This document shows positions 2,284 to 57,920 of a stretch of DNA of 64,000 nucleotides, piece by piece. Location: the NCBI RefSeq assembly GCF_928381405.1, contig NZ_CAKMSB010000001.1, forward strand, positions 1 through 64,000, read 5' to 3'. The notes under the pieces are model-generated. The model saw nothing but the letters and a program-made list of their open reading frames with translations, made no database searches and was not told where the DNA came from. The stretch's first letter is position 1. Every line of letters begins with the position of its first letter. Origin of the DNA: Rothia nasisuis. GTDB lineage: Bacteria > Actinomycetota > Actinomycetes > Actinomycetales > Micrococcaceae. The position numbers and the translations under genes are program-made.

Positions 2284-4038
2284 ATGAAAATTACCCGCTT
2301 CATTCACCGGCGAGAATGGTTACTCGCCCTGGTGGCGGTGCTGTCTATCGTGGCTCAGGTCTACCTTGACCTCAAGGTTCCCGAGTACATGGAGAACATC
2401 ACCCTCACCATCTCATCCCCCGGGTCAGAACTGAAGGACGTCACCTCAGACGGCACCCTCATGCTGGCTGCAGCGCTGGCCTCCATGGTCTGTGCCATTA
2501 TCACCGGCTACTGCACCGCTATTTTCGGCACAACCCTAGCCCGGCGTATGCGGGCCGGGGTCTATAACAAGACCTTTGACCTCTCCAGCGCTGAGGTCAA
2601 CCAGATCGGCACCGACAGCCTGATTACCCGCTCCACCAACGATGTGACCCAGGTGCAGATGTTTGTGGTGATGGGCTTGCAGATGAGCATCAAGGCCCCC
2701 ATCATGGCGGTGTGGGCCAGCTCCAAGATCGCTACCCAGTCGCTGACCTGGACCATTCCCACCGGCATCGCCGTCCTAGCTACCCTGCTGGTTCTGGGCG
2801 TCGCGATGGGCCTGGCGATTCCCCGCATGATGCGTATGCAGAAAATCACCGACCGCCTCAACCGGGTTACCCGTGAGCACCTGACCGGCCTGCGCGTCAT
2901 TCGGGCCTACACCACCGGGGATTTTCACCAAGAACGCTTTGAAGAGGTCAACACCGACCTGCGTAACACCACCCTCTTCGTCAACTCCACCACGGCCTTC
3001 ATCATGCCCCTGTTGACCGCCATTATGACCGGCCTGTCGCTCTCGATTTACGTGTTGGGTGCTGTGCTCATCAACGGCACCGCCAACCTCACCGACCGCG
3101 TCACCCTCTTTGGGCAGATGGTGGTCTTCTCTACTTATGCTCTGCAGGTGGTCACCAGCTTCATGATGATGACCGTAATCTTTGTGATGGGCCCACGAGC
3201 ACTGGTTGCCTGGCGCCGTATCCGCGAGGTGCTTTCGACTCCGGCTACGATTGTGGACGGCGGGGTCAGCGCTGGTACGGCCCCGGCAGGTTCCCTGGAG
3301 TTTAGGAATGTCAGCTTCCGTTACCCCGAGGCGGACGGGGACGCCCTGCATTCGATTTCCTTTACGGCAGCCCCGGGTGAGACGGTGGCCATTATTGGTT
3401 CAACCGGCTCGGGTAAGTCGACCCTGGTGAATCTGATTCCGCGTTTTGCCGATGTGCGCGAGGGTGCGGTGCTGGTGGACGGTGTTGATGTGCGCAACTG
3501 GAACCAGAAGGACCTGCGGGCCCGCTTAGCCTATGTGCCTCAAAAGAGTGTGCTCTTCTCGGGCTCGGTGGCCTCTAACCTTGCCCTGGGTGAGGGCCTG
3601 CAGGCAGTGACCGCCGAGGACGTGGTGGCGGCAGCTCATGCAGCTGCGGCAGCTGAGTTCGTGGGCAAGAAAGAGGACGGCTATGCCTCGGTGGTTGCCC
3701 AGAACGGTAAGAATTTCTCTGGTGGTCAGAGGCAGCGCCTATCCATGGCCAGGGCCTTTGCCCGTGGCGGGGAGATCATGATTTTTGATGATTCCTTCTC
3801 GGCCCTGGATTATAAGACTGAGCGGGATATCCGCAGTCAGCTCAAGAAGACCGCCAAGGGGGCGACCATCGTGGTGGTGGCCCAGCGTATCGGTACGGTA
3901 CGGGAGGCCGATAAGATTCTGGTGCTTGATAAAGGCCGCCTGGTTGGCTCCGGCACCCACGAGGAACTTTTGGCCAGCAACGAGGTCTACCAGGATATTG
4001 CCCTGTCCCAGCTCTCTGAGGAGGAACTTCGCTCATGA
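2284..4038 (+). CDS. ABC exporter half-transporter with degenerate catalytic site
   Basis: This type IV ABC exporter subunit of 584 residues has a six-helix transmembrane domain (about 10-315) and a nucleotide-binding domain (about 335-584). It shows Walker A GSTGSGKST (372-380) and signature FSGGQ (478-482). Walker B is MIFDDS, with aspartate 503 where the catalytic glutamate belongs, and the switch position is glutamine 534 (VVAQR) instead of histidine. These substitutions are the known pattern of the degenerate site in heterodimeric exporters such as TM287/288. The stop overlaps the start of the next gene by four bases, and that gene supplies the canonical Walker site. The substrate is unknown; multidrug or lipid export is a family-level guess. 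Confidence 0.92.
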   Translation: MKITRFIHRREWLLALVAVLSIVAQVYLDLKVPEYMENITLTISSPGSELKDVTSDGTLMLAAALASMVCAIITGYCTAIFGTTLARRMRAGVYNKTFDLSSAEVNQIGTDSLITRSTNDVTQVQMFVVMGLQMSIKAPIMAVWASSKIATQSLTWTIPTGIAVLATLLVLGVAMGLAIPRMMRMQKITDRLNRVTREHLTGLRVIRAYTTGDFHQERFEEVNTDLRNTTLFVNSTTAFIMPLLTAIMTGLSLSIYVLGAVLINGTANLTDRVTLFGQMVVFSTYALQVVTSFMMMTVIFVMGPRALVAWRRIREVLSTPATIVDGGVSAGTAPAGSLEFRNVSFRYPEADGDALHSISFTAAPGETVAIIGSTGSGKSTLVNLIPRFADVREGAVLVDGVDVRNWNQKDLRARLAYVPQKSVLFSGSVASNLALGEGLQAVTAEDVVAAAHAAAAAEFVGKKEDGYASVVAQNGKNFSGGQRQRLSMARAFARGGEIMIFDDSFSALDYKTERDIRSQLKKTAKGATIVVVAQRIGTVREADKILVLDKGRLVGSGTHEELLASNEVYQDIALSQLSEEELRS

Positions 4039-5957
4039 GCCAGTCACCAGTTTTTACCCCCGAAGAGCTAGAGTCAGCCCGCAGGGGCCTAGAGTCTGCA
4101 GGCCAGCTGCGCGATAGCCAGCTCAAAAGCGATAAGGGCTCCCGCCCCGGTGGCTTCGGTGGCCCCGGTGGTCCGCCGCGCCACACCCTGCCGGGGCAGG
4201 CGTCCGCCCCCTTCAAACAAACTATAGGTAAGTTGCTTGCCTACCTGCGCCCGGTGCTGCCCGGCATGATTGTTGCCATTGTGGCTGCCATTATCGGGGT
4301 TGTTCTTACCATTGTTGCCCCGCAGTTCCTTTCGGCGATCACCGATGAGATTCAGAAGGGCTTCACCGGCCAGCTGGATATGGGCGAAATCTACCGCCTG
4401 ATGTGGATCTCCATCGGCATGTTGGTGGCCTCCCTGCTTCTAAGCCTGGTGGAGGGGCAGATTATGGCCCGCTCAACGGTCTGGGTATCGCGCTCCATGC
4501 GCCACGATTTGGATCGCAAAATTGACCGGCTGCCTCTGGCCTACATGGATAGGGGCTCAACCGGCGATACACTCTCGCGCGTGACCAACGATGTGGATAC
4601 CCTACAGCAGACCCTCAACAACTCCCTGGCCACCACCATCACCGGTGTGGTCACCCTGGTGGGCTCAACCATCATGATGATTGTCACCGACTGGCGCATG
4701 GCCCTGGCTGCCATTGTTGCCTCCCTGCTGGGTATCGTCGCCTCCGGCTTCGTGCTGGCCCGCAGCCAGAAATACTTCGTGGCCCAGCAGCAGCTACTCG
4801 GTAAGCTCAATGGCCACATTGAAGAAACCCTCAGCGGTCACTCCATGATCCGCGCCTACAACGGGGAGGCAGGCGCCCGCGCCGAATTTGCCGACCGCAA
4901 TAGCGACCTCTACCGGGTGGCCTGGAAGTCTATGTTCTTCTCGGGCCTCATGTTCCCCCTCATGGGCTTCATCGGCAACCTGAGCTATGTGGTGGTCTGC
5001 GTGGTTGGTGCTGCCCTGGTTCTGAACAACAGCATCACTTTCGGCGTGATTGTGGCCTTTATCGTCTACGTCCGCCTCTTCACCAATCCCCTGGGCCAGC
5101 TGGCCCAGTCGGCAACCTCCCTCCAGTCGGCGGCAGCTGCGGGTTCTCGCGTCTTTGAGTTCTTAGAGGCAGAGGAGCTGGAGGACGAGTCCGCCAAGAC
5201 CGGCGCTCTGCCCCAGCCGGTGCGCGGGGCAGTGAACTTTGAGGACGTGCGCTTCAGCTACGAGCCGGGCACTGAGATTATCCACGGCTTTACCGCCTCG
5301 GTAGCACCGGGCCAGAAGGTAGCCATTGTAGGCCCGACCGGAGCCGGCAAAACCACCCTGGTCAACCTGCTCATGCGCTTCTACGAGCTGGACTCGGGCC
5401 AGATTCGTATTGACGGGGTGCCCACCACCGACCTGACCCGCGAACAGGTGGACTCCCTCTTTGCCATGGTGCTACAGGATACCTGGCTCTTTGAGGGCAC
5501 CCTGCGGGAGAACGTAGTCTATGGGGCCGGAGAGGTCAGCCAGGAGCGGCTAGATGAGGTGATGGCCTCGGTGGGCCTGGACGAGCTGGTCACCCAGCTG
5601 CACGATGGCTACGACACCGTGTTGACCGATCAGACCCAGCTCTCAGCCGGCCAGAAGCAGCTGGTCACCATTGCCCGGGCTATGGTGGCCAATAAGCCGC
5701 TGCTAATCCTTGATGAGGCAACCTCATCGGTTGATACCCGCACCGAGCTGCTGATTGCCCGAGCCCTGGGCCAGCTGGCGGTTGGCAAGACCTCCTTCGT
5801 GATTGCCCACCGACTCTCCACTATCCGGGACGCCGACGTCATCTTTGCTATGCGCGATGGTGACATCGTCGAATCCGGCTCCCACACCGAGCTGCTGGAG
5901 CGCGGCGGCTTCTACGCTGAGCTCTATAACTCGCAGTTCGCGGGGGCTAACGAGTAG
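4035..5957 (+). CDS. ABC exporter half-transporter, canonical partner
   Basis: This is the 640-residue partner of the preceding gene. A polar, Gly/Pro-rich N-terminal extension of about 60 residues precedes a six-helix membrane domain (about 65-370) and a nucleotide-binding domain. That domain has Walker A GPTGAGKTT (433-441), canonical Walker B LILDEATSSVD (from about 557) and H-loop His 592 (VIAHR). Its signature is LSAGQ (536-540), with alanine replacing the first glycine. That altered signature would face the degenerate Walker site of the partner, so the pair should have one active and one inactive ATP site. Position, overlap and complementary degeneracy all support a heterodimer. The gene ends immediately before a repeat element. 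Confidence 0.92.
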   Translation: MSQSPVFTPEELESARRGLESAGQLRDSQLKSDKGSRPGGFGGPGGPPRHTLPGQASAPFKQTIGKLLAYLRPVLPGMIVAIVAAIIGVVLTIVAPQFLSAITDEIQKGFTGQLDMGEIYRLMWISIGMLVASLLLSLVEGQIMARSTVWVSRSMRHDLDRKIDRLPLAYMDRGSTGDTLSRVTNDVDTLQQTLNNSLATTITGVVTLVGSTIMMIVTDWRMALAAIVASLLGIVASGFVLARSQKYFVAQQQLLGKLNGHIEETLSGHSMIRAYNGEAGARAEFADRNSDLYRVAWKSMFFSGLMFPLMGFIGNLSYVVVCVVGAALVLNNSITFGVIVAFIVYVRLFTNPLGQLAQSATSLQSAAAAGSRVFEFLEAEELEDESAKTGALPQPVRGAVNFEDVRFSYEPGTEIIHGFTASVAPGQKVAIVGPTGAGKTTLVNLLMRFYELDSGQIRIDGVPTTDLTREQVDSLFAMVLQDTWLFEGTLRENVVYGAGEVSQERLDEVMASVGLDELVTQLHDGYDTVLTDQTQLSAGQKQLVTIARAMVANKPLLILDEATSSVDTRTELLIARALGQLAVGKTSFVIAHRLSTIRDADVIFAMRDGDIVESGSHTELLERGGFYAELYNSQFAGANE

Positions 5958-50296: not shown

Positions 50297-51400
50297 CTAG
50301 TAGAGAATGGAAATAGCCCCGTGGTTTCGGACACTGCGAGCAGTACCGCCGTTGCTTCCTAGGGCGATGGTTGCCCCCAGAACCTGGCTGGAAACATAGT
50401 TTCCACCGCCACCACCAGAGGCTCCCACCTGGCCGGTGGACTTTGATTGTTCAGAAATACTAGCAGCACCAACAATCCCGCCAGAGCCGCCACCGCCGTA
50501 GCCGCCACCGCCAGCTCCTGAGCGCATAGCGTTGGTGTAGCCAGAGTTGTGGATGTAACTGATGTTGCCATCTGCCCCCTTAGCCTTGAAGCCGTCCTGC
50601 CCAGGGTTACCTGGTAGCTGAGCAAATTCAAGAATTTGGACTGAATCAATCTGGTTGGTCATTGTCCCGTTGGCTCCACCAGCGCCTCCCTTACCGCCTG
50701 TAGCTCCACCGCCGCCATAGGTAGTGGCAGTGACCCGCTCAATGGACATGTAGACAGAGTTCAGCCCTACGCTTTGACCGGCACCACCTGCTGAGGGTCG
50801 GCTACCCACAGTCCATTGGCGGGGGGTGATGCCTGGCTCCCTGAGGGTCCACCAGCCTGCAAAGCCACCGCCTCCACCACCACCTGCCACCACGAGAGGG
50901 GTAGCGGAGTCTCCGGCCCCTAGGAGGATAGCGGAGCCACCGCCACCGCTTGCTGCGTAAGAGTTCAAGCCGCCATTGATGGTTTCAGTCTCTGGGGCCA
51001 GGACGCTACCGCCGTCCCCGTAGCCACCACCGCCTGTTGCTGGCAGGCCGGGGGAACCAATGCCGCCGGCTGCTACTACAAGGGTCAGTTGCTGGCCGGG
51101 GGTAACCATAAGTTCTCCGGTAATGATTCCGCCTGCCCCACCTTGCATGTAGGAAAGGTAGCTTCGGCCACCACCGCCCCCTAATACGCTGAAGCAGATC
51201 TTTGAGACCCCTTCTGGAACAGTCCAGGTGGTGGTGACGGCCTGGTCTGAATCTGCAGCTGGTGCTGGTGCAACGAAGGTCCCATTAGCGCAGGTCTGAG
51301 AGGCGGCATAGCTTGGAACCATACTGGTTCCTAGAATGACAGGCACGGACCAGCTCGCCCCCTGGACTAGATGGCGGCGGGTCATCTGATTACTGGGCAT
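50297..51400 (-). CDS. Tat-exported glycine-rich protein
   Basis: From ATG 51400 (AAGAAAG upstream) the 367-residue protein begins MPSNQMTRRHLVQGASW, followed by a hydrophobic stretch and SYAAS. This looks like a short twin-arginine signal with cleavage near residue 35. The mature part starts with a beta-rich segment (TTTWTVPEGVSKICFSVLGG), then many GGGG and GGGGG runs separated by polar strands. This layout resembles glycine-rich domains that fold into packed polyglycine helices, as in phage adhesins and the ALK receptor. It is probably secreted and may be an adhesin or matrix protein. TATACT at 51493-51488 may be its own -10 box. It lies downstream of the unusual ABC pair. Confidence 0.8.
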   Translation of the reverse strand: MPSNQMTRRHLVQGASWSVPVILGTSMVPSYAASQTCANGTFVAPAPAADSDQAVTTTWTVPEGVSKICFSVLGGGGGRSYLSYMQGGAGGIITGELMVTPGQQLTLVVAAGGIGSPGLPATGGGGYGDGGSVLAPETETINGGLNSYAASGGGGSAILLGAGDSATPLVVAGGGGGGGFAGWWTLREPGITPRQWTVGSRPSAGGAGQSVGLNSVYMSIERVTATTYGGGGATGGKGGAGGANGTMTNQIDSVQILEFAQLPGNPGQDGFKAKGADGNISYIHNSGYTNAMRSGAGGGGYGGGGSGGIVGAASISEQSKSTGQVGASGGGGGNYVSSQVLGATIALGSNGGTARSVRNHGAISILY

Positions 51401-51584
51401 AAATATCTTTCTTGTCCCTGTTGATTCTGGTTCAAATCGGACATTTGCCACCTTTTATGGGGTCATTTGTCCTCTATTGTTCCCATAAGTATAGAGTGAC
51501 ACACATCAAGGAGGCGAAAGGGGGTGATGTAAGAATCGTCACATATCTTGTAGCTTCTTAGCTCAGGGCAGACCGGCACCCAGC

Positions 51585-53336
51585 TTAGCTTTTGGCAAAG
51601 ATATCGGCCGGGCTTGCTTCTGCCACCAGTTCACCGTTTTCCAGGAGCACGGCCCGGTCTGCCAGAGAGGCAATACGGGCATCATGGGAGATGATGATGA
51701 CAGCCCGCCCCTGCATCACGGCAGCCAGAGATTGGCGGGCATCGGCCAGTTCAAGCTGGGTGGTTGATTCGTCCAGAATCACTGCGTGAGGATTAGCTAC
51801 CACAATGCGGGCTAGACCCAGCTGCTGAATCTGGTCGCGGGTGAGCTCTGTGCTACCGCCGCCGACCCGGCTCTCCAGCCCCTCGGGCAGGTCATCGACC
51901 CAGGTCGCGCCGACCGCCCGTAAGGCGGTGAGCATCTGCTCGGTGCTAGCGTCGGGGGCTGCCACGGTCATGTTCTCGGCCAGGGAGCCGACAAAGACGT
52001 GGGCCTCCTGGGTGCAGATGAGCAGGGCGGGGCGTCCGCTGGCATCGGGCTGGGTGGGGTACAAACCGTTGCCCACTAGCTGACTGCCGACCTGCACGGT
52101 GCCGCTATCTGCGGTGAGCGACCCGGCAATCAGGCGGGCAAGGGTGGTCTTACCCGAGCCGGAGCGCCCTACCAGGGCAAGGCTCTCCCCCGCCGCCAGC
52201 TGCAGGTCAACCCCCTTAATCACGGGGGCGTCCGGGTCGTACCCGTAGGTCACGCCCTGCAGACTAATGACCGGGGCGGACGCGCCCTGCCCGGGCAGGT
52301 GCGCCGGGGCAGATACCTGCCCGGCGGCACGGCGGGCCTGCTGCTGGTTCGACAGGTCAATAACACCAAAGACACGCCCCATGGTGACGGTCATTTCGCG
52401 CAGGCGGTCGAGCCAGAAGGTGAAGATATCCGAGTTGTCGCGCATAGTGAAGAGCATGATAGAGGCGGTTGCAACGTCGCCCCAGGTAGCCCACCCCTGC
52501 TCCACGCAGTAGGCGCCCCAGACCATGGAGAGCACCAGGGGTAGGAAGGAGTTGAAGGCGTCCACGGCCCAGAAGATGGAGCGCACCACAACCATGCGAT
52601 CGCTGACCTCAAAGGTTTTCCAGATGCGCTCATCCTGCACCCGGGCACGGGCCTCACTGATCCCCAGCTCTTCAACGGTCCCAGCACCGCGAATGTTTTC
52701 GGTTGCTACCACGGTCAGGTCGCTGACCGCCTCGGTCTTTTCCCGGGTGAGCTTGGCAATCCGGGGTAGGAAAATCGAAAGCACGATGGTCATCACGATA
52801 AACATGGGCACGGTCACCAGGCCGATGGCCGGGTTGACGGTGAAGATGGTAGCTGCGGTAATCAGCATGTAGATGCTGATATGGGCGAATTCCGGCAGGC
52901 CGGTGGCCAGCACCTGGCGCACGCTATCGACGTCGTCGGTCAGGCGGGCTACCAGGTCGCCGGAGCCGGCATCCTCAACGGTTTGGGCATCCAGCTGCAG
53001 GGAGGCCCCAACCAGGTCTATGCCCAAATCGCGGTTGAGCCGCACGCCCATTTTCTGGCCCTGGAAGGTCCAGGCACGGGCCAGCAGGGCCCCGGCCAGC
53101 ACAGCAACACCAATGATTGCTAGCTCTGCCCAGGGGTAGCCGGTCAGCTGCCCGGTGGTGGCCCGGTCAATGAGCTGCCCCACCATAATAGGGGTCACCA
53201 GGGTAGCCACGGAGCTAGCCACAAACAGAACCACCAGCCAAATCAGCTGCCAGGGGGTTTTGAGAATCGAGCGGGCCAGTAGCCTCCAGGTAGTCTTACC
53301 GTCAGTAATGGGGAGGAGGTTAGCCACGGGCCTCAC
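51585..53336 (-). CDS. ABC half-transporter with canonical Walker site but lost signature
   Basis: The 583-residue type IV exporter subunit has a six-helix membrane domain (about 20-325) and a nucleotide-binding domain. Walker A GRSGSGKTT (390-398), Q-loop Gln 443, Walker B AVILDES (Asp 522, Glu 523) and H-loop His 551 are all present. The signature is LTRDQ (498-502) instead of LSGGQ, so it cannot complete a second ATP site. Its partner, the preceding gene, has the opposite defect: a good signature and no Walker A. The two genes overlap by 17 bases. Together they should form exactly one working ATP site. The substrate is unknown; export of a peptide or surface component is possible from the downstream Tat protein. 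Confidence 0.9.
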   Translation of the reverse strand: MRPVANLLPITDGKTTWRLLARSILKTPWQLIWLVVLFVASSVATLVTPIMVGQLIDRATTGQLTGYPWAELAIIGVAVLAGALLARAWTFQGQKMGVRLNRDLGIDLVGASLQLDAQTVEDAGSGDLVARLTDDVDSVRQVLATGLPEFAHISIYMLITAATIFTVNPAIGLVTVPMFIVMTIVLSIFLPRIAKLTREKTEAVSDLTVVATENIRGAGTVEELGISEARARVQDERIWKTFEVSDRMVVVRSIFWAVDAFNSFLPLVLSMVWGAYCVEQGWATWGDVATASIMLFTMRDNSDIFTFWLDRLREMTVTMGRVFGVIDLSNQQQARRAAGQVSAPAHLPGQGASAPVISLQGVTYGYDPDAPVIKGVDLQLAAGESLALVGRSGSGKTTLARLIAGSLTADSGTVQVGSQLVGNGLYPTQPDASGRPALLICTQEAHVFVGSLAENMTVAAPDASTEQMLTALRAVGATWVDDLPEGLESRVGGGSTELTRDQIQQLGLARIVVANPHAVILDESTTQLELADARQSLAAVMQGRAVIIISHDARIASLADRAVLLENGELVAEASPADIFAKS

Positions 53337-54975
53337 CTGCTTTCAGTCGTCGCTCAACCTCCATGGTGGTTGAGACCAGGTAAATCTGGCGGATATGTTC
53401 GAGGGGGCCGGGTTTGCCCGTCAACGCTTCGAGCTGGTTGAGGATGAACTTCTGGCTGGGTTCGTCCACCGAGTTCAGCGGTTCGGTGAGCACCAGCACG
53501 GACGCCGGCTGGGCTAGTGCCCGGGCTAGGGCAAGGCGCTGCCGCTGGCCGCCAGAGAGGTTGGTGCCTTCTGAGGCCAGGGTGCTGGCCAGGTACTTTT
53601 CGGGGTCGCGGCCACCGAGTCGGAAGGCGATTTCTTCGGAGTCGGTGAGCTTCAACAGCTCAATCATGCGCTCCCGGCTCAGCCCCTCGGTGCCCATCTG
53701 CAGGTGGTCAGCCAGGGAGCCGGCAAAAATCATGGGGTTGGGTTCCGAAAGAAGCACACGCTCACCCCCGGCGAGGACGCCCGCCGCCTGCTCCCTGCCC
53801 GGGGCAGGTTGAGTTTGGCGTAGGGCTTCGGTCAGAGCTTCGGCGTAGTCCTGGGCTGGCAACCCGGCTTCGCGCGGGTTGATGTAGTGAACCGGGGTGC
53901 TGGCCCGGGGAACCTCAACCAGCGCCTGCCCTGCTGCGGCGCTGGTCGCCGGGGCGGGGGCGTCCTTACCCTCTACCTGAGAGTTACCCTCAACCTCAGC
54001 CGCAAGTCTATCTACACGCTTGAGGGCAACACGGGCATTGCGCCAGTCAAAGAGCAGCATCTCCACCGACCAGATGGGGCCGGTTAGGGTGTTAATCAGA
54101 CCAACCACTGTGACCAGCTGACCCGCGGGTACCTCTGTTATCCAGGTGCCCTCAGGGGCAGCCCCACGCAGGGCCAGGGCGATTACTACCCAGGTTACGG
54201 TACCTACCAGAAAATTACGCACTGCATAAGACCAGGTCTGCACGCTCTCCAGGCGGATCTGGGAGGTGTAGACATCCTGGGCCGTTGCCCCGTAGCGGTC
54301 CATCATGCGGCGCTGGGCGCCCAAGCCCAAAATAGTGCGAATCGAAGAGGCAATATCTGAAGCCCGGGAGGTAGACACCCCCACCTTGTCACGGAAAATA
54401 TCCGCGTGCTTTTCCAAGAGTTTGGAAATCCAGGTGAGGGTCAGCATGGTGAGAATCAGCCCGCCCAGAGCCACCACCGCAATCGCCGGGCTAATGCGCC
54501 AGAGCTGCCAGGTGCCCAGGGCGGTCACGCCCACCGCAGAAAAAGCCATAATCATGGGCTCCCACATCTCGGCCATTGCCCGGGCGTCCTTATTCAAAAT
54601 CGCAATGAGGGCACCGGTATCGCGGTTGGGGCTGCGGGAGATTAGGTGGGCGATGTAGAGCCGCCAGTCCCTCTCGATGCGGGCTACTACCCTAAAGGTG
54701 ATGCCCCAGCCCACGAACTCGACGACCGACAGGTAAACCACCACACCCACTAACAGCCAGACCAGCCGCCAGGCAGCAGCCTCATCACCAGAGGTGTGCA
54801 GGTCGATAATCGTGCCCACCAGAACCGGCAGAAAGACGAGGGCTAGAGAGGTCAGAATATCGAGGGGGAAGGGCAGAAAAAAGAGGGGACGCCAGCGGAA
54901 GCCCGGCGGTGCGATACGGAACTTAACTTTTTCTTTCGGTGTTTTCGTCTTTTTCTCGTCAGCGTTCTCAGCCAT
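53320..54975 (-). CDS. ABC half-transporter lacking a Walker A motif
   Basis: This 551-residue protein has a normal-looking six-helix exporter domain (about 35-315), but a reduced nucleotide-binding domain. No P-loop occurs anywhere between the membrane domain and the signature: the expected region is a proline/alanine-rich linker and LVEVPRASTPVHYINPREAG (about 352-371). The Q-loop is replaced by LLSEPNPMIFAGSL, Walker B has Thr 497 in place of Asp (VLVLTEPLNSVD), and the switch histidine is serine (LVSTT). Only the signature LSGGQRQRLALARAL (473-487) is canonical. The protein could serve as a signature donor to its partner. It is the first gene of the pair, behind an attenuator-like leader. 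Confidence 0.88.
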   Translation of the reverse strand: MAENADEKKTKTPKEKVKFRIAPPGFRWRPLFFLPFPLDILTSLALVFLPVLVGTIIDLHTSGDEAAAWRLVWLLVGVVVYLSVVEFVGWGITFRVVARIERDWRLYIAHLISRSPNRDTGALIAILNKDARAMAEMWEPMIMAFSAVGVTALGTWQLWRISPAIAVVALGGLILTMLTLTWISKLLEKHADIFRDKVGVSTSRASDIASSIRTILGLGAQRRMMDRYGATAQDVYTSQIRLESVQTWSYAVRNFLVGTVTWVVIALALRGAAPEGTWITEVPAGQLVTVVGLINTLTGPIWSVEMLLFDWRNARVALKRVDRLAAEVEGNSQVEGKDAPAPATSAAAGQALVEVPRASTPVHYINPREAGLPAQDYAEALTEALRQTQPAPGREQAAGVLAGGERVLLSEPNPMIFAGSLADHLQMGTEGLSRERMIELLKLTDSEEIAFRLGGRDPEKYLASTLASEGTNLSGGQRQRLALARALAQPASVLVLTEPLNSVDEPSQKFILNQLEALTGKPGPLEHIRQIYLVSTTMEVERRLKAGEARG

Positions 54976-55316: not shown

Positions 55317-57920
55317 ATGAAGATTCTTCCCTTTCTTTCCCCCTCTTTAGCCGATAAGGCCAAGCCCTATTTCCGCGGCGATTTTGCCTCAAACCCGCTC
55401 ACCGGCGACGAAGCCTACGAAGCATTTACTGACTGGATTACCAGCCGCGGCATGGAGCTCTACCCAGCCCAGGACGAGGCTGTGCTGGAGCTGGCAGCGG
55501 GCAACAACGTCATTCTGGCTACTCCCACCGGCTCCGGCAAGTCGACCGTGGCAGTTGCCGCCCACTTTATGGGGCTGGCTGCTGGCCAGCGCTCCTACTA
55601 CACCGCACCTATCAAGGCCCTGGTCTCTGAGAAGTTCTTCGATCTCTGTGAGATTTTTGGGGCTGAGAACGTGGGGATGGTGACCGGCGATTCCTCTATC
55701 AACGCCGGTGCGCCTATTGTCTGCTGTACCGCCGAAATTTTGGCTAACATCGTACTACGCGAGGGTGAGGGAGCCGACCTAACCCAGGTCATCATGGATG
55801 AGTTTCACTTCTACTCTGACCCCCAGCGCGGCTGGGCTTGGCAGGTGCCCCTGCTGGATCTACCCCAGGCCCAGTTCCTGCTCATGAGCGCGACCCTGGG
55901 CGACACCAGCCGGTTTGAACGCGAGCTGACGGAACTGACCGGGCGCGGCACGGCCCTGGTCACCAGCGAGACCCGCCCGATTCCGCTGAACTACACCTAC
56001 TCCCGGGAGCCCCTGGTCGAGAAGGTGGACGAGCTGGTGTCCACCCACCAGGCCCCGGTCTATATTGTGCACTTTTCACAGTTGCAGGCTATCGATACGG
56101 CCGCGGCCCTGATGAGCCTGGCTATTGCGTCCAAGGAGGATAAGGCCCGCATCAACGAGCTGACCGCGGGCTTCCGCTACTCAGCGGGCTTCGGCAAGCA
56201 GCTGCAAAAGTACATCAAGAATGGCATCGGTATTCACCATGCCGGCATGCTGCCCAAGTACCGCCGCCTGGTGGAGCAGCTAGCCCAGGCGGGCCTGCTC
56301 AAGGTTATTTGTGGCACCGATACGCTGGGTGTGGGTATCAACGTCCCCATCCGTACTGTGCTGGTGACCGCCCTGTCAAAGTTTGACGGGCAGCGCACCC
56401 GCCGCCTCAAGTCCCGTGAGTTCCACCAGATTGCTGGACGCGCGGGCCGAGCCGGCTTTGATACCGCCGGTTACGTGGTGGTCCAGGCCCCCGAACACGA
56501 CATTGAGAACAACCGGCTTGAAGCCAAGGCCAGGGAGAAGTTCAATGGGGATGAGAAGAAGATAGCCCAGTCTCTACGCGGTAAAAAGAAGAAGCCTCCG
56601 CAGGGTTTTGTGGCCTGGAGTGAGAAGACCTTCGAGCAGATTATTGCCGCTGAGCCTGAGCCGTTGACCTCCTCCTTCCAGATGACCCACTCTATGATGC
56701 TCAATATGTTGCAGCGCGAGGCTGACCCCTTTGAGACCGTCATGCTTTTCTTGACCGCCAACCACGAGCCACCTATTAAGCAGCGGGCCCTCAAGCGCAA
56801 GGCGCTCGGTATCTACCGGGAGCTTCTGAACGGGGGTGTGGTAGAGCGTCTGCCAGAGCCCGACGAGTTTGGTCGCACCGTGCGTCTGACTGTCTCATTG
56901 CAGGAGAATTTCGCCCTGAACCAGCCTCTCTCCCCCTTCGCTCTGGCTTCGCTGTCTCTGCTCGATCAGGAGTCAGAGTCCTACGCCCTGGATGCCGTTT
57001 CGGTCATTGAGGCTACCCTAGAGCGCCCCCGACAGGTATTAATCGGGCAGGAGAAGCGAGCCAAAACCGAGGCCCTGGCTGAGATGAAGGCCGAGGGGAT
57101 GGACTACAACGAGCGCATGGCTGAACTCGATACCATCACCTACCCGCAACCCTTGGCCGACCTGCTGGAACAGGCCTTTGAAACCTACTCTGCCAGTGCC
57201 CCTTTCATGAAGGAGTTTGAGGTTGAGCCCAAGAGCGTGGTACGCGATATGTACGAGCGGGCTATGGGCTTTGGCGACTACATCAAATATTACGGACTAG
57301 AGCGCTCCGAGGGTATTTTGCTGCGCTACCTTTCGGATGCTTATAAGGCCCTGCGCCAGACTGTGCCACTGTCTGCTCTGACCGATGAGCTCACCGATGT
57401 AATCGAGTGGCTGGGCGAGGTTATCCGGCAGACCGATTCCTCCCTGGTGGATGAGTGGGAGCGTCTGGCCGCAGGTGAAGAGGGAGCTCCGGTGCAAGAC
57501 TCTCTCGAGGAGCTCGTTGCCGAGTCGGCACCCAAGGTGACGCGCAACGTCCGTGCCTTTAAGGTGATGGTACGCAATGCCCTCTTCCGCCGGGTGGAGC
57601 TGTTTGCGGACGAGCGGGACCGCCTGCTGGGCGAGCTGGACGGCGAGCGCTCGGGCTGGGACGCTGACCGCTGGGGGCAGGCCTTGGATGACTACTTCGA
57701 TGAGTACGAGGATATCTATACGGACGCGGACGCCCGCTCCCCGCGTCTGATTGAGATTGATGATGATGTGGCGGCCCACCCCGGTTTTTGGTTGGTGCGC
57801 CAGGTCTTTGCTGACCCGGAGGATAACCATGACTTCGGCATCAGGGCCAGGGTCGATTTGGATGCCTCGGATGAGGAGGGCGCGCCCGTGGTGCTGATTG
57901 AGAGTGTAGGGGCCTTCTAA
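55317..57920 (+). CDS. SKI2-like DEAD/DEAH helicase with DUF3516
   Basis: The 867-residue protein is an ATP-dependent helicase of the Ski2-like group, with a DUF3516 C-terminal half typical of Actinobacteria. The helicase core has Walker A ATPTGSGKST (68-77), motif II DEFH (161-164), motif III SAT (191-193), the HHAGMLPKYRR segment and motif VI HQIAGRAGRAGFD. The C-terminal part is mostly helical and acidic. It is cytoplasmic. It probably unwinds RNA or nucleoprotein; the exact substrate is unknown. AGAAGGA precedes ATG 55317. Its stop overlaps the stop of the convergent gene, with no room for a terminator. Confidence 0.93.
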   Translation: MKILPFLSPSLADKAKPYFRGDFASNPLTGDEAYEAFTDWITSRGMELYPAQDEAVLELAAGNNVILATPTGSGKSTVAVAAHFMGLAAGQRSYYTAPIKALVSEKFFDLCEIFGAENVGMVTGDSSINAGAPIVCCTAEILANIVLREGEGADLTQVIMDEFHFYSDPQRGWAWQVPLLDLPQAQFLLMSATLGDTSRFERELTELTGRGTALVTSETRPIPLNYTYSREPLVEKVDELVSTHQAPVYIVHFSQLQAIDTAAALMSLAIASKEDKARINELTAGFRYSAGFGKQLQKYIKNGIGIHHAGMLPKYRRLVEQLAQAGLLKVICGTDTLGVGINVPIRTVLVTALSKFDGQRTRRLKSREFHQIAGRAGRAGFDTAGYVVVQAPEHDIENNRLEAKAREKFNGDEKKIAQSLRGKKKKPPQGFVAWSEKTFEQIIAAEPEPLTSSFQMTHSMMLNMLQREADPFETVMLFLTANHEPPIKQRALKRKALGIYRELLNGGVVERLPEPDEFGRTVRLTVSLQENFALNQPLSPFALASLSLLDQESESYALDAVSVIEATLERPRQVLIGQEKRAKTEALAEMKAEGMDYNERMAELDTITYPQPLADLLEQAFETYSASAPFMKEFEVEPKSVVRDMYERAMGFGDYIKYYGLERSEGILLRYLSDAYKALRQTVPLSALTDELTDVIEWLGEVIRQTDSSLVDEWERLAAGEEGAPVQDSLEELVAESAPKVTRNVRAFKVMVRNALFRRVELFADERDRLLGELDGERSGWDADRWGQALDDYFDEYEDIYTDADARSPRLIEIDDDVAAHPGFWLVRQVFADPEDNHDFGIRARVDLDASDEEGAPVVLIESVGAF

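Follow-up and report, generated by a model that had tools for sequence, protein, structure and literature searches.

Within a 64,000-nucleotide stretch of the Rothia nasisuis genome (contig NZ_CAKMSB010000001.1, positions 1 to 64,000; hereafter the window), two overlapping genes encode half-transporters, designated A and B. With a probability that we put at about three in four, they form a heterodimeric type IV ATP-binding cassette (ABC) exporter with one working ATP site and an opposite interface made of protein only; the pairing, the use of one ATP per cycle and the hinge are what we infer from the sequences. All consensus residues for one composite site are present, with B supplying the cis motifs and A the signature and D-loop, and, judged by these motifs, one such standard site is the maximum that A and B can build. 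This split of motifs recurs across many actinobacterial relatives, which offers a natural test of the second site's purpose.

Gene pair and division of motifs

Half A lacks Walker A, the Q-loop Gln, the Walker B Asp and the switch His, and has NPREAG.. in the Walker A columns, but retains LSGGQRQR, the catalytic Glu position (TEP) and the D-loop Asp (SVD). Half B retains Walker A, the Q-loop Gln, the Walker B Asp-Glu and the switch His, while LTRDQ (LTRDQIQQ) replaces its signature and its D-loop is altered. The features of the two genes, including their transmembrane domains (TMD) and nucleotide-binding domains (NBD), are as follows.

53320..54975, minus strand: half-transporter A (551 amino acids), TMD plus a reduced NBD predicted to donate signature and D-loop only
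51585..53336, minus strand: half-transporter B (583 amino acids), TMD plus full NBD, no ABC signature
53320..53336, minus strand: overlap of A end and B start, 17 nucleotides
53818..53892, minus strand: A, strand-loop-helix at the position of the P-loop, VHYINPREAGLPAQDYAEALTEALR (residues about 362-386; motif reading and AlphaFold model)
53719..53757, minus strand: A, Q-loop region VLLSEPNPMIFAG, without Gln (LSEPNPM)
53536..53562, minus strand: A, intact signature NLSGGQRQR
53464..53499, minus strand: A, Walker B remnant VLVLTEP (Asp to Thr, Glu retained) and D-loop NSVD, together LVLTEPLNSVD
53347..53382, minus strand: A, switch region YLVSTTMEVERR (STTM), His to Thr
52143..52169, minus strand: B, Walker A GRSGSGKTT
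51999..52019, minus strand: B, Q-loop ICTQEAH
51807..51845, minus strand: B, signature position LTRDQIQQLGLAR; L498, R500, D501 and Q502 invariant in 10/10 aligned Rothia rows
51750..51785, minus strand: B, Walker B AVILDES and altered D-loop TTQLE (VILDESTTQLE)
51675..51695, minus strand: B, switch IISHDAR

The short overlap suggests translational coupling of A and B. Both proteins exceed the cut-offs of PF00664 and PF00005 and are thereby classed as type IV (ABCB-like) half-transporters, A through positions 96-137 of the NBD profile only. In A, ABC_membrane scored 51.9 bits and ABC_tran, matched over its C-terminal positions 96-137 of 137 alone, 31.1 bits against a cut-off of 25; in B both domains are complete. 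A preliminary description of this DNA had listed the four losses of A and its kept signature, had B keeping all four motifs and bearing LTRDQ, and concluded that exactly one composite ATP site can form. Motif reading bore out the two lists, and the division of motifs supports the conclusion for a standard site.

The same description had called the other site wholly absent. The Walker A sequence is indeed gone, but a conserved remnant persists, comprising the strand-loop-helix and the catalytic Glu position. Residues N366, P367, R368, L372, Q375, L381, L385 and R386 of A are invariant in 11/11 aligned Rothia rows, as are LSGGQ and NSVDEPSQ; a further locus beyond these rows (L100) has Lys at R368, so the loop reads Asn-Pro-(Arg/Lys). 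Neither an A-loop nor a beta-subdomain was detectable in Rothia A by sequence alignment and AlphaFold modelling. The model, built with 11 sequences (predicted local distance difference test score, pLDDT, 72.7; predicted template modelling score, pTM, 0.49), keeps the TMD helices and core strands (362-365, 407-409, 493-496 and 530-534) and contains no predicted beta-subdomain. Its best Foldseek matches were TmrAB, MsRv1273c/72c and MsbA, with TM287/288 at rank 7, at whole-chain TM-scores of only 0.37-0.44. The stretch from TMD end to signature measures 134-169 residues in Rothia, against medians of 152 in other A-type halves (defined below) and 165 in ordinary halves. As this stretch is not strikingly short, a variable linker and a longer loop occupying the space, the "deleted" Walker A could also be one that has diverged past the point of being recognised.

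Conservation in Rothia

The nearest named genome is that of Rothia nasimurium (98% identity over A). The orthologue scan gave 16 loci, i.e. 15 orthologous ones and one generic NBD match (L024). In A, the P-loop is absent and LSGGQ present in 15/15 orthologues; in B, the P-loop is present together with an LTRDQ or LSRDQ signature in all 14 readable loci, the B of one locus (L020) being masked past the P-loop. The pattern is thus fixed in every readable Rothia orthologue, at identities of 41-98% and with open reading frames. A second search of the genus found A in 25 of 35 Rothia genomes and an identical pair in 23/23 readable newly fetched loci, one more being a contig-end fragment; it largely repeats the genomes of the first scan and is not independent of it.

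The ratio of nonsynonymous to synonymous substitution rates (dN/dS), calculated from nine R. nasimurium-like sequences, was 0.10 for A and 0.10 for B, so both genes are under purifying selection; with the fixation in all readable orthologues, this makes the pattern more than a chance one. Within A, the value of 0.13 for the NBD remnant (B's NBD, 0.12) against 0.71 for the linker places the remnant under selection and leaves the linker nearly free. The preliminary description had proposed an alignment of orthologues, in which an intact Walker A would point to local decay. Both losses co-occur in every readable orthologue, and Walker A was intact in none of the 15 orthologues, none of the 23 overlapping loci of the second search and none of the 83 A-type halves described below. 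Local decay of A was rejected on this fixation and on the dN/dS of about 0.10.

A wider actinomycete family

One distant match, from another genus of the Micrococcaceae (L049), has an eroded P-loop. Used as a query at 1e-40, it gave matches in 41/197 Micrococcaceae genomes and 12/32 genera, of which a subset was inspected. A profile of 14 rows (A3) at 1e-108 gave A-type matches in 92/197 sampled Actinomycetes genomes and 40/91 genera. This threshold separated unsplit A-type halves from ordinary ones in the loci examined and missed A-type matches in two pieces (e.g. L169); at 1e-60 ordinary exporters enter too (376/394). Once near-duplicates, low-scoring halves and frames shorter than 480 or longer than 760 residues had been removed, the family set comprised 83 A-type and 78 B-type halves.

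Among the 83 non-redundant A-type halves, Walker A was found in none and its Lys is missing from every one. SGG[QE] and a D-loop of the form [STN][AS][VLI]D are kept in all 83, the switch His in none and the Walker B Asp in six. The B-type halves all have Walker A and the Q-loop Gln (78/78 each). In the 53 that are readable beyond the signature, 25 being cut by the end of the fetched stretch, SGGQ is found in 0/53 and the Asp, Glu and His in 53/53; the B-type D-loop varies. By these counts, A retains the parts required at its partner's site, and B those required at its own.

Trees were built from 34 of the 83 A-type halves, 22 B-type halves and all 23 rows of a third group (one of which, the partner of L164, is really a low-scoring B). 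The A-type halves form one side of a branch, with support in the Shimodaira-Hasegawa-like approximate likelihood ratio test (SH-aLRT) of 98 in the full tree and 97 in a TMD-only tree under a mixture model (34/34 sampled A rows). Since the TMD-only tree still recovers the branch, the grouping of A is independent of the NBD remnant. Judged by these trees, the motif arrangement marks one clade of actinomycete exporters. Within the A clade, Rothia A has a long stem branch (1.53); Rothia B adjoins the B halves of a neighbouring subclade. Distances among A and among B halves are correlated (Mantel r 0.97 over 69 loci; 0.96 over 60 without Rothia). Next to the A clade in the TMD tree stands one half (L187, 1468-3909, minus strand) whose P-loop is intact and in which a pattern search found no SGGQ. 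A match from Rhizobium phaseoli (H20, L193) was rejected as a family member, being an ordinary half with both motifs present.

The P-loop column differs between these groups. In Streptomyces the preceding strands are still there (column, e.g., VVATDPAHAADLL), other Micrococcaceae relatives have shortened first strands, and in Rothia a longer loop (INPREAGLPAQDYAEAL in the window) stands where the P-loop would be. Position 4 of the column is Pro in 59/83 A-type halves. The erosion is visible in sequence and not in length, since the distance from TMD end to signature shows no steady fall. The Rothia pair therefore seems to be the furthest-eroded branch of a family that is widespread among actinomycetes and divides the motifs in the same way; a reading of the pair as an isolated oddity was not supported. 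The apparent erosion series, from Streptomyces through other Micrococcaceae to Rothia, supplies natural intermediates.

Comparison with known exporters

Heterodimeric exporters with a degenerate site resemble A and B in fold class, in being composed of two half-transporters and in having one consensus and one degenerate site. The other named pumps of this kind are known to retain both P-loops. The degenerate-site Walker A kept in these heterodimers is absent from A of the window and from all 83 A-type halves. A second pair of the window, at 2284-5957, has both Walker A motifs intact, MIFDD and Gln for the switch His in one half, and LSAGQ in the other; by these motifs it is an ordinary TM287/288-like heterodimer, as the preliminary description had recognised, and its two intact P-loops uphold the further claim that the asymmetry of A and B exceeds it. 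In MsRv1273c/72c, too, the degenerate site is described as employing its Walker A and holding nucleotide (PMC12038006), whereas half A has no Walker A at all.

A further comparison is with the fungal PDR family. Passages of a review describe all motifs of one site as altered in Pdr5 and its relatives, including the Walker A Lys and the opposite signature, and count the Lys to Cys change of Pdr5 among the largest deviations (PMC7756269). Every motif of one site is altered in A/B as well. Pdr5, however, is a single chain of reverse topology (NBD before TMD) in which Lys is changed to Cys, whereas A and B are separate TMD-NBD halves, a form that rejects Pdr5-like membership, and in A the P-loop sequence is replaced and the beta-subdomain undetectable. 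The fold and the logic are shared with heterodimeric exporters; what sets the family apart is a degenerate site without a P-loop, beyond the deviation of Pdr5.

The best NCBIfam match of A is NF000506, TetA of the Corynebacterium striatum TetAB transporter (NF000506/NF000103), at 84.6 bits; this is far under the cut-off of 1025 bits and rejects TetAB membership, TetAB remaining a possible functional precedent. Between the TMD end (353) and the Q-loop region (376) that profile has about 22 positions, against 61 residues in A, so C. striatum TetA is probably also without a Walker A, as read from profile coordinates and not from the TetA sequence itself. TetAB would then be a working precedent, since tetA/B of C. 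striatum appears in a review as an ABC transporter whose substrates are tetracyclines and beta-lactams (PMC8304765). One search of plasmid records gave three records, all from Streptomyces, and no Corynebacterium record, looked for as a source of TetA, stood among the matches listed in two others (60 of 618 and 60 of 3224). At 1e-60 the NF000506 profile matched 0/149 Actinomycetota genomes and 1/14 controls (Corynebacterium glutamicum), the latter under its cut-off. CydC (TIGR02868), the second-best NCBIfam match of A (83.5 bits) and the best of B (186 bits), was rejected at a cut-off of 329.05, and CydDC membership with it. The A3 profile matched 569 solved sequences; among the best 60 no recognisable A-type half was found, the top ones being P-glycoproteins scored over two halves. 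Among the open-licence literature matches listed, none concerned Walker A-less or single-site exporters by its title or the start of its abstract, which does not imply absence from print.

Proposed mechanism and alternative explanations

In the proposed cycle, B would contribute Walker A, the Q-loop, the Walker B Asp and Glu and the switch His to the working site, while A, from across the interface, would add its LSGGQ signature and its D-loop. Once ATP is bound at this single site the NBDs would close and the pump would switch; it would be reset when the ATP, one per cycle, is hydrolysed and released. The opposite interface, composed of the NP(R/K) loop and remnant core of A and the LTRDQ helix of B, is predicted not to bind ATP in the usual manner and most likely serves as a protein-only hinge or scaffold. 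More tentatively, and at somewhat less than even odds, the whole large actinomycete clade may use one ATP and one site per cycle, with a protein-only hinge replacing the second nucleotide, in which a conserved loop of A, with [DE]-Pro in many of the relatives and Asn-Pro-(Arg/Lys) in Rothia, would dock onto the conserved LT..Q.Q helix of B.

The review cited above describes degenerate sites as binding nucleotide, calls their advantage unclear and proposes that ATP there acts as a stationary hinge (PMC7756269); a structural study of 2025 calls the degenerate site essential (PMC12038006). A natural family with a P-loop-less second site allows a direct test of that site's role. Should these pumps prove to transport, a second bound ATP cannot be a requirement, and if the reading of one ATP and a protein hinge is true, a stationary ATP at the degenerate site is unnecessary in principle.

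Several observations weigh against a single-site exporter. In TetAB(60), an ordinary heterodimer, deletion of the Walker A region in either half is described as abolishing tetracycline resistance (PMC5138185); a Walker A-less half is thus not tolerated there, though the deletions of 57-69 bp could also disturb folding. The acidic residue (E or D) at the catalytic position of 82/83 A-type halves would be needless for a dead site. The AlphaFold model of A is moderate, with low confidence exactly at the expected beta-subdomain (333-351 and 389-404). Shared descent also predicts correlated A and B trees, so the correlation fits joint inheritance and does not prove contact. The zero counts are partly circular, since members of this type had gone into the profiles used for classification; two results argue that circularity is not the whole cause, namely the TMD-only tree and the gap in score that separates A-type from ordinary halves. 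Weak-scoring B halves were left uncounted as B, the partner of L164 having landed in the ordinary group, and at 14 of the 83 A loci the fetched stretch yielded no B-type half that survived filtering. Finally, 10/35 Rothia genomes gave no match to A.

This last absence, the loss of most NBD motifs and the long Rothia stem would also suit A being a decaying, pseudogene-like subunit, with B acting alone or with another partner. We consider this improbable in view of the dN/dS of A, its open frames across the whole range of identities and the invariant LSGGQ and NSVDEPSQ. Moreover, B has no SGGQ of its own, which makes a standard homodimer site impossible, and no lone B adjoins the helicase gene that neighbours A in the window: nine of the ten genomes have this gene, and in the roughly 1.5 kb flanking it on each side nothing A- or B-like is encoded; the tenth has no helicase match. 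The conserved strand-loop-helix and acidic position of A, together with the conserved LTRDQ of B, could instead mean that the remnant site binds ATP or another ligand unusually, like the degenerate site of MsRv1273c/72c or MRP1, and that the pair is an ordinary two-nucleotide asymmetric exporter. This is unlikely, though less so than decay, given the universal lack of the Walker A Lys in A-type halves, the undetectable A-loop and beta-subdomain of Rothia A, and the missing Q-loop Gln and Walker B Asp in A of the window. Least probable of all is that the pair has become a regulated channel or receptor and is no longer an ATP-driven pump; its extreme asymmetry resembles that of CFTR or SUR and a single site can still gate, but every catalytic residue of the working site is kept, and three named relatives lie amid siderophore genes, a setting in which one would expect export.

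Gene neighbourhoods and possible cargo

The neighbours of the pair in Streptomyces sp. NBC_01558 include a SidA-type monooxygenase gene and one annotated as methionyl-tRNA formyltransferase; in Tsukamurella tyrosinosolvens and in Rhodococcus sp. 2G, genes for isochorismate synthase and isochorismatase lie alongside it. All three have the same A/B motif pair. On actinomycete plasmids, relatives (L051, L190 and L191) occur amid siderophore genes of hydroxamate or catecholate type. SURF1 is found nearby in 10/13 Micrococcaceae stretches of one less eroded subclade (L082-L094), hinting at a role near cytochrome oxidase assembly there, and in 4/20 of another set (L138-L157); its presence in 0/9 Rothia stretches rejects it as an explanation for the Rothia pair. 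The family thus most likely consists of exporters with differing cargoes. By analogy with the neighbours of these distant relatives, our guesses at candidate cargoes are iron chelators or another envelope compound.

The Rothia neighbours are uninformative about cargo. In the window and in L102, Pfam identifies a DEAD-box/DUF3516 helicase together with a formate-tetrahydrofolate ligase; in L105 there is a thiamine-type kinase there instead. In the window the helicase, a DEAD-box protein with DUF3516, is encoded at 55317-57920, divergently oriented to A. An open reading frame of helicase-like length, judged by length alone, stands at the same place in 14/15 Rothia orthologue loci, the exception being L105. 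After B, positions 50297-51451 encode a protein with a weak match to a glycine-rich domain (Pfam Gly_rich_2).

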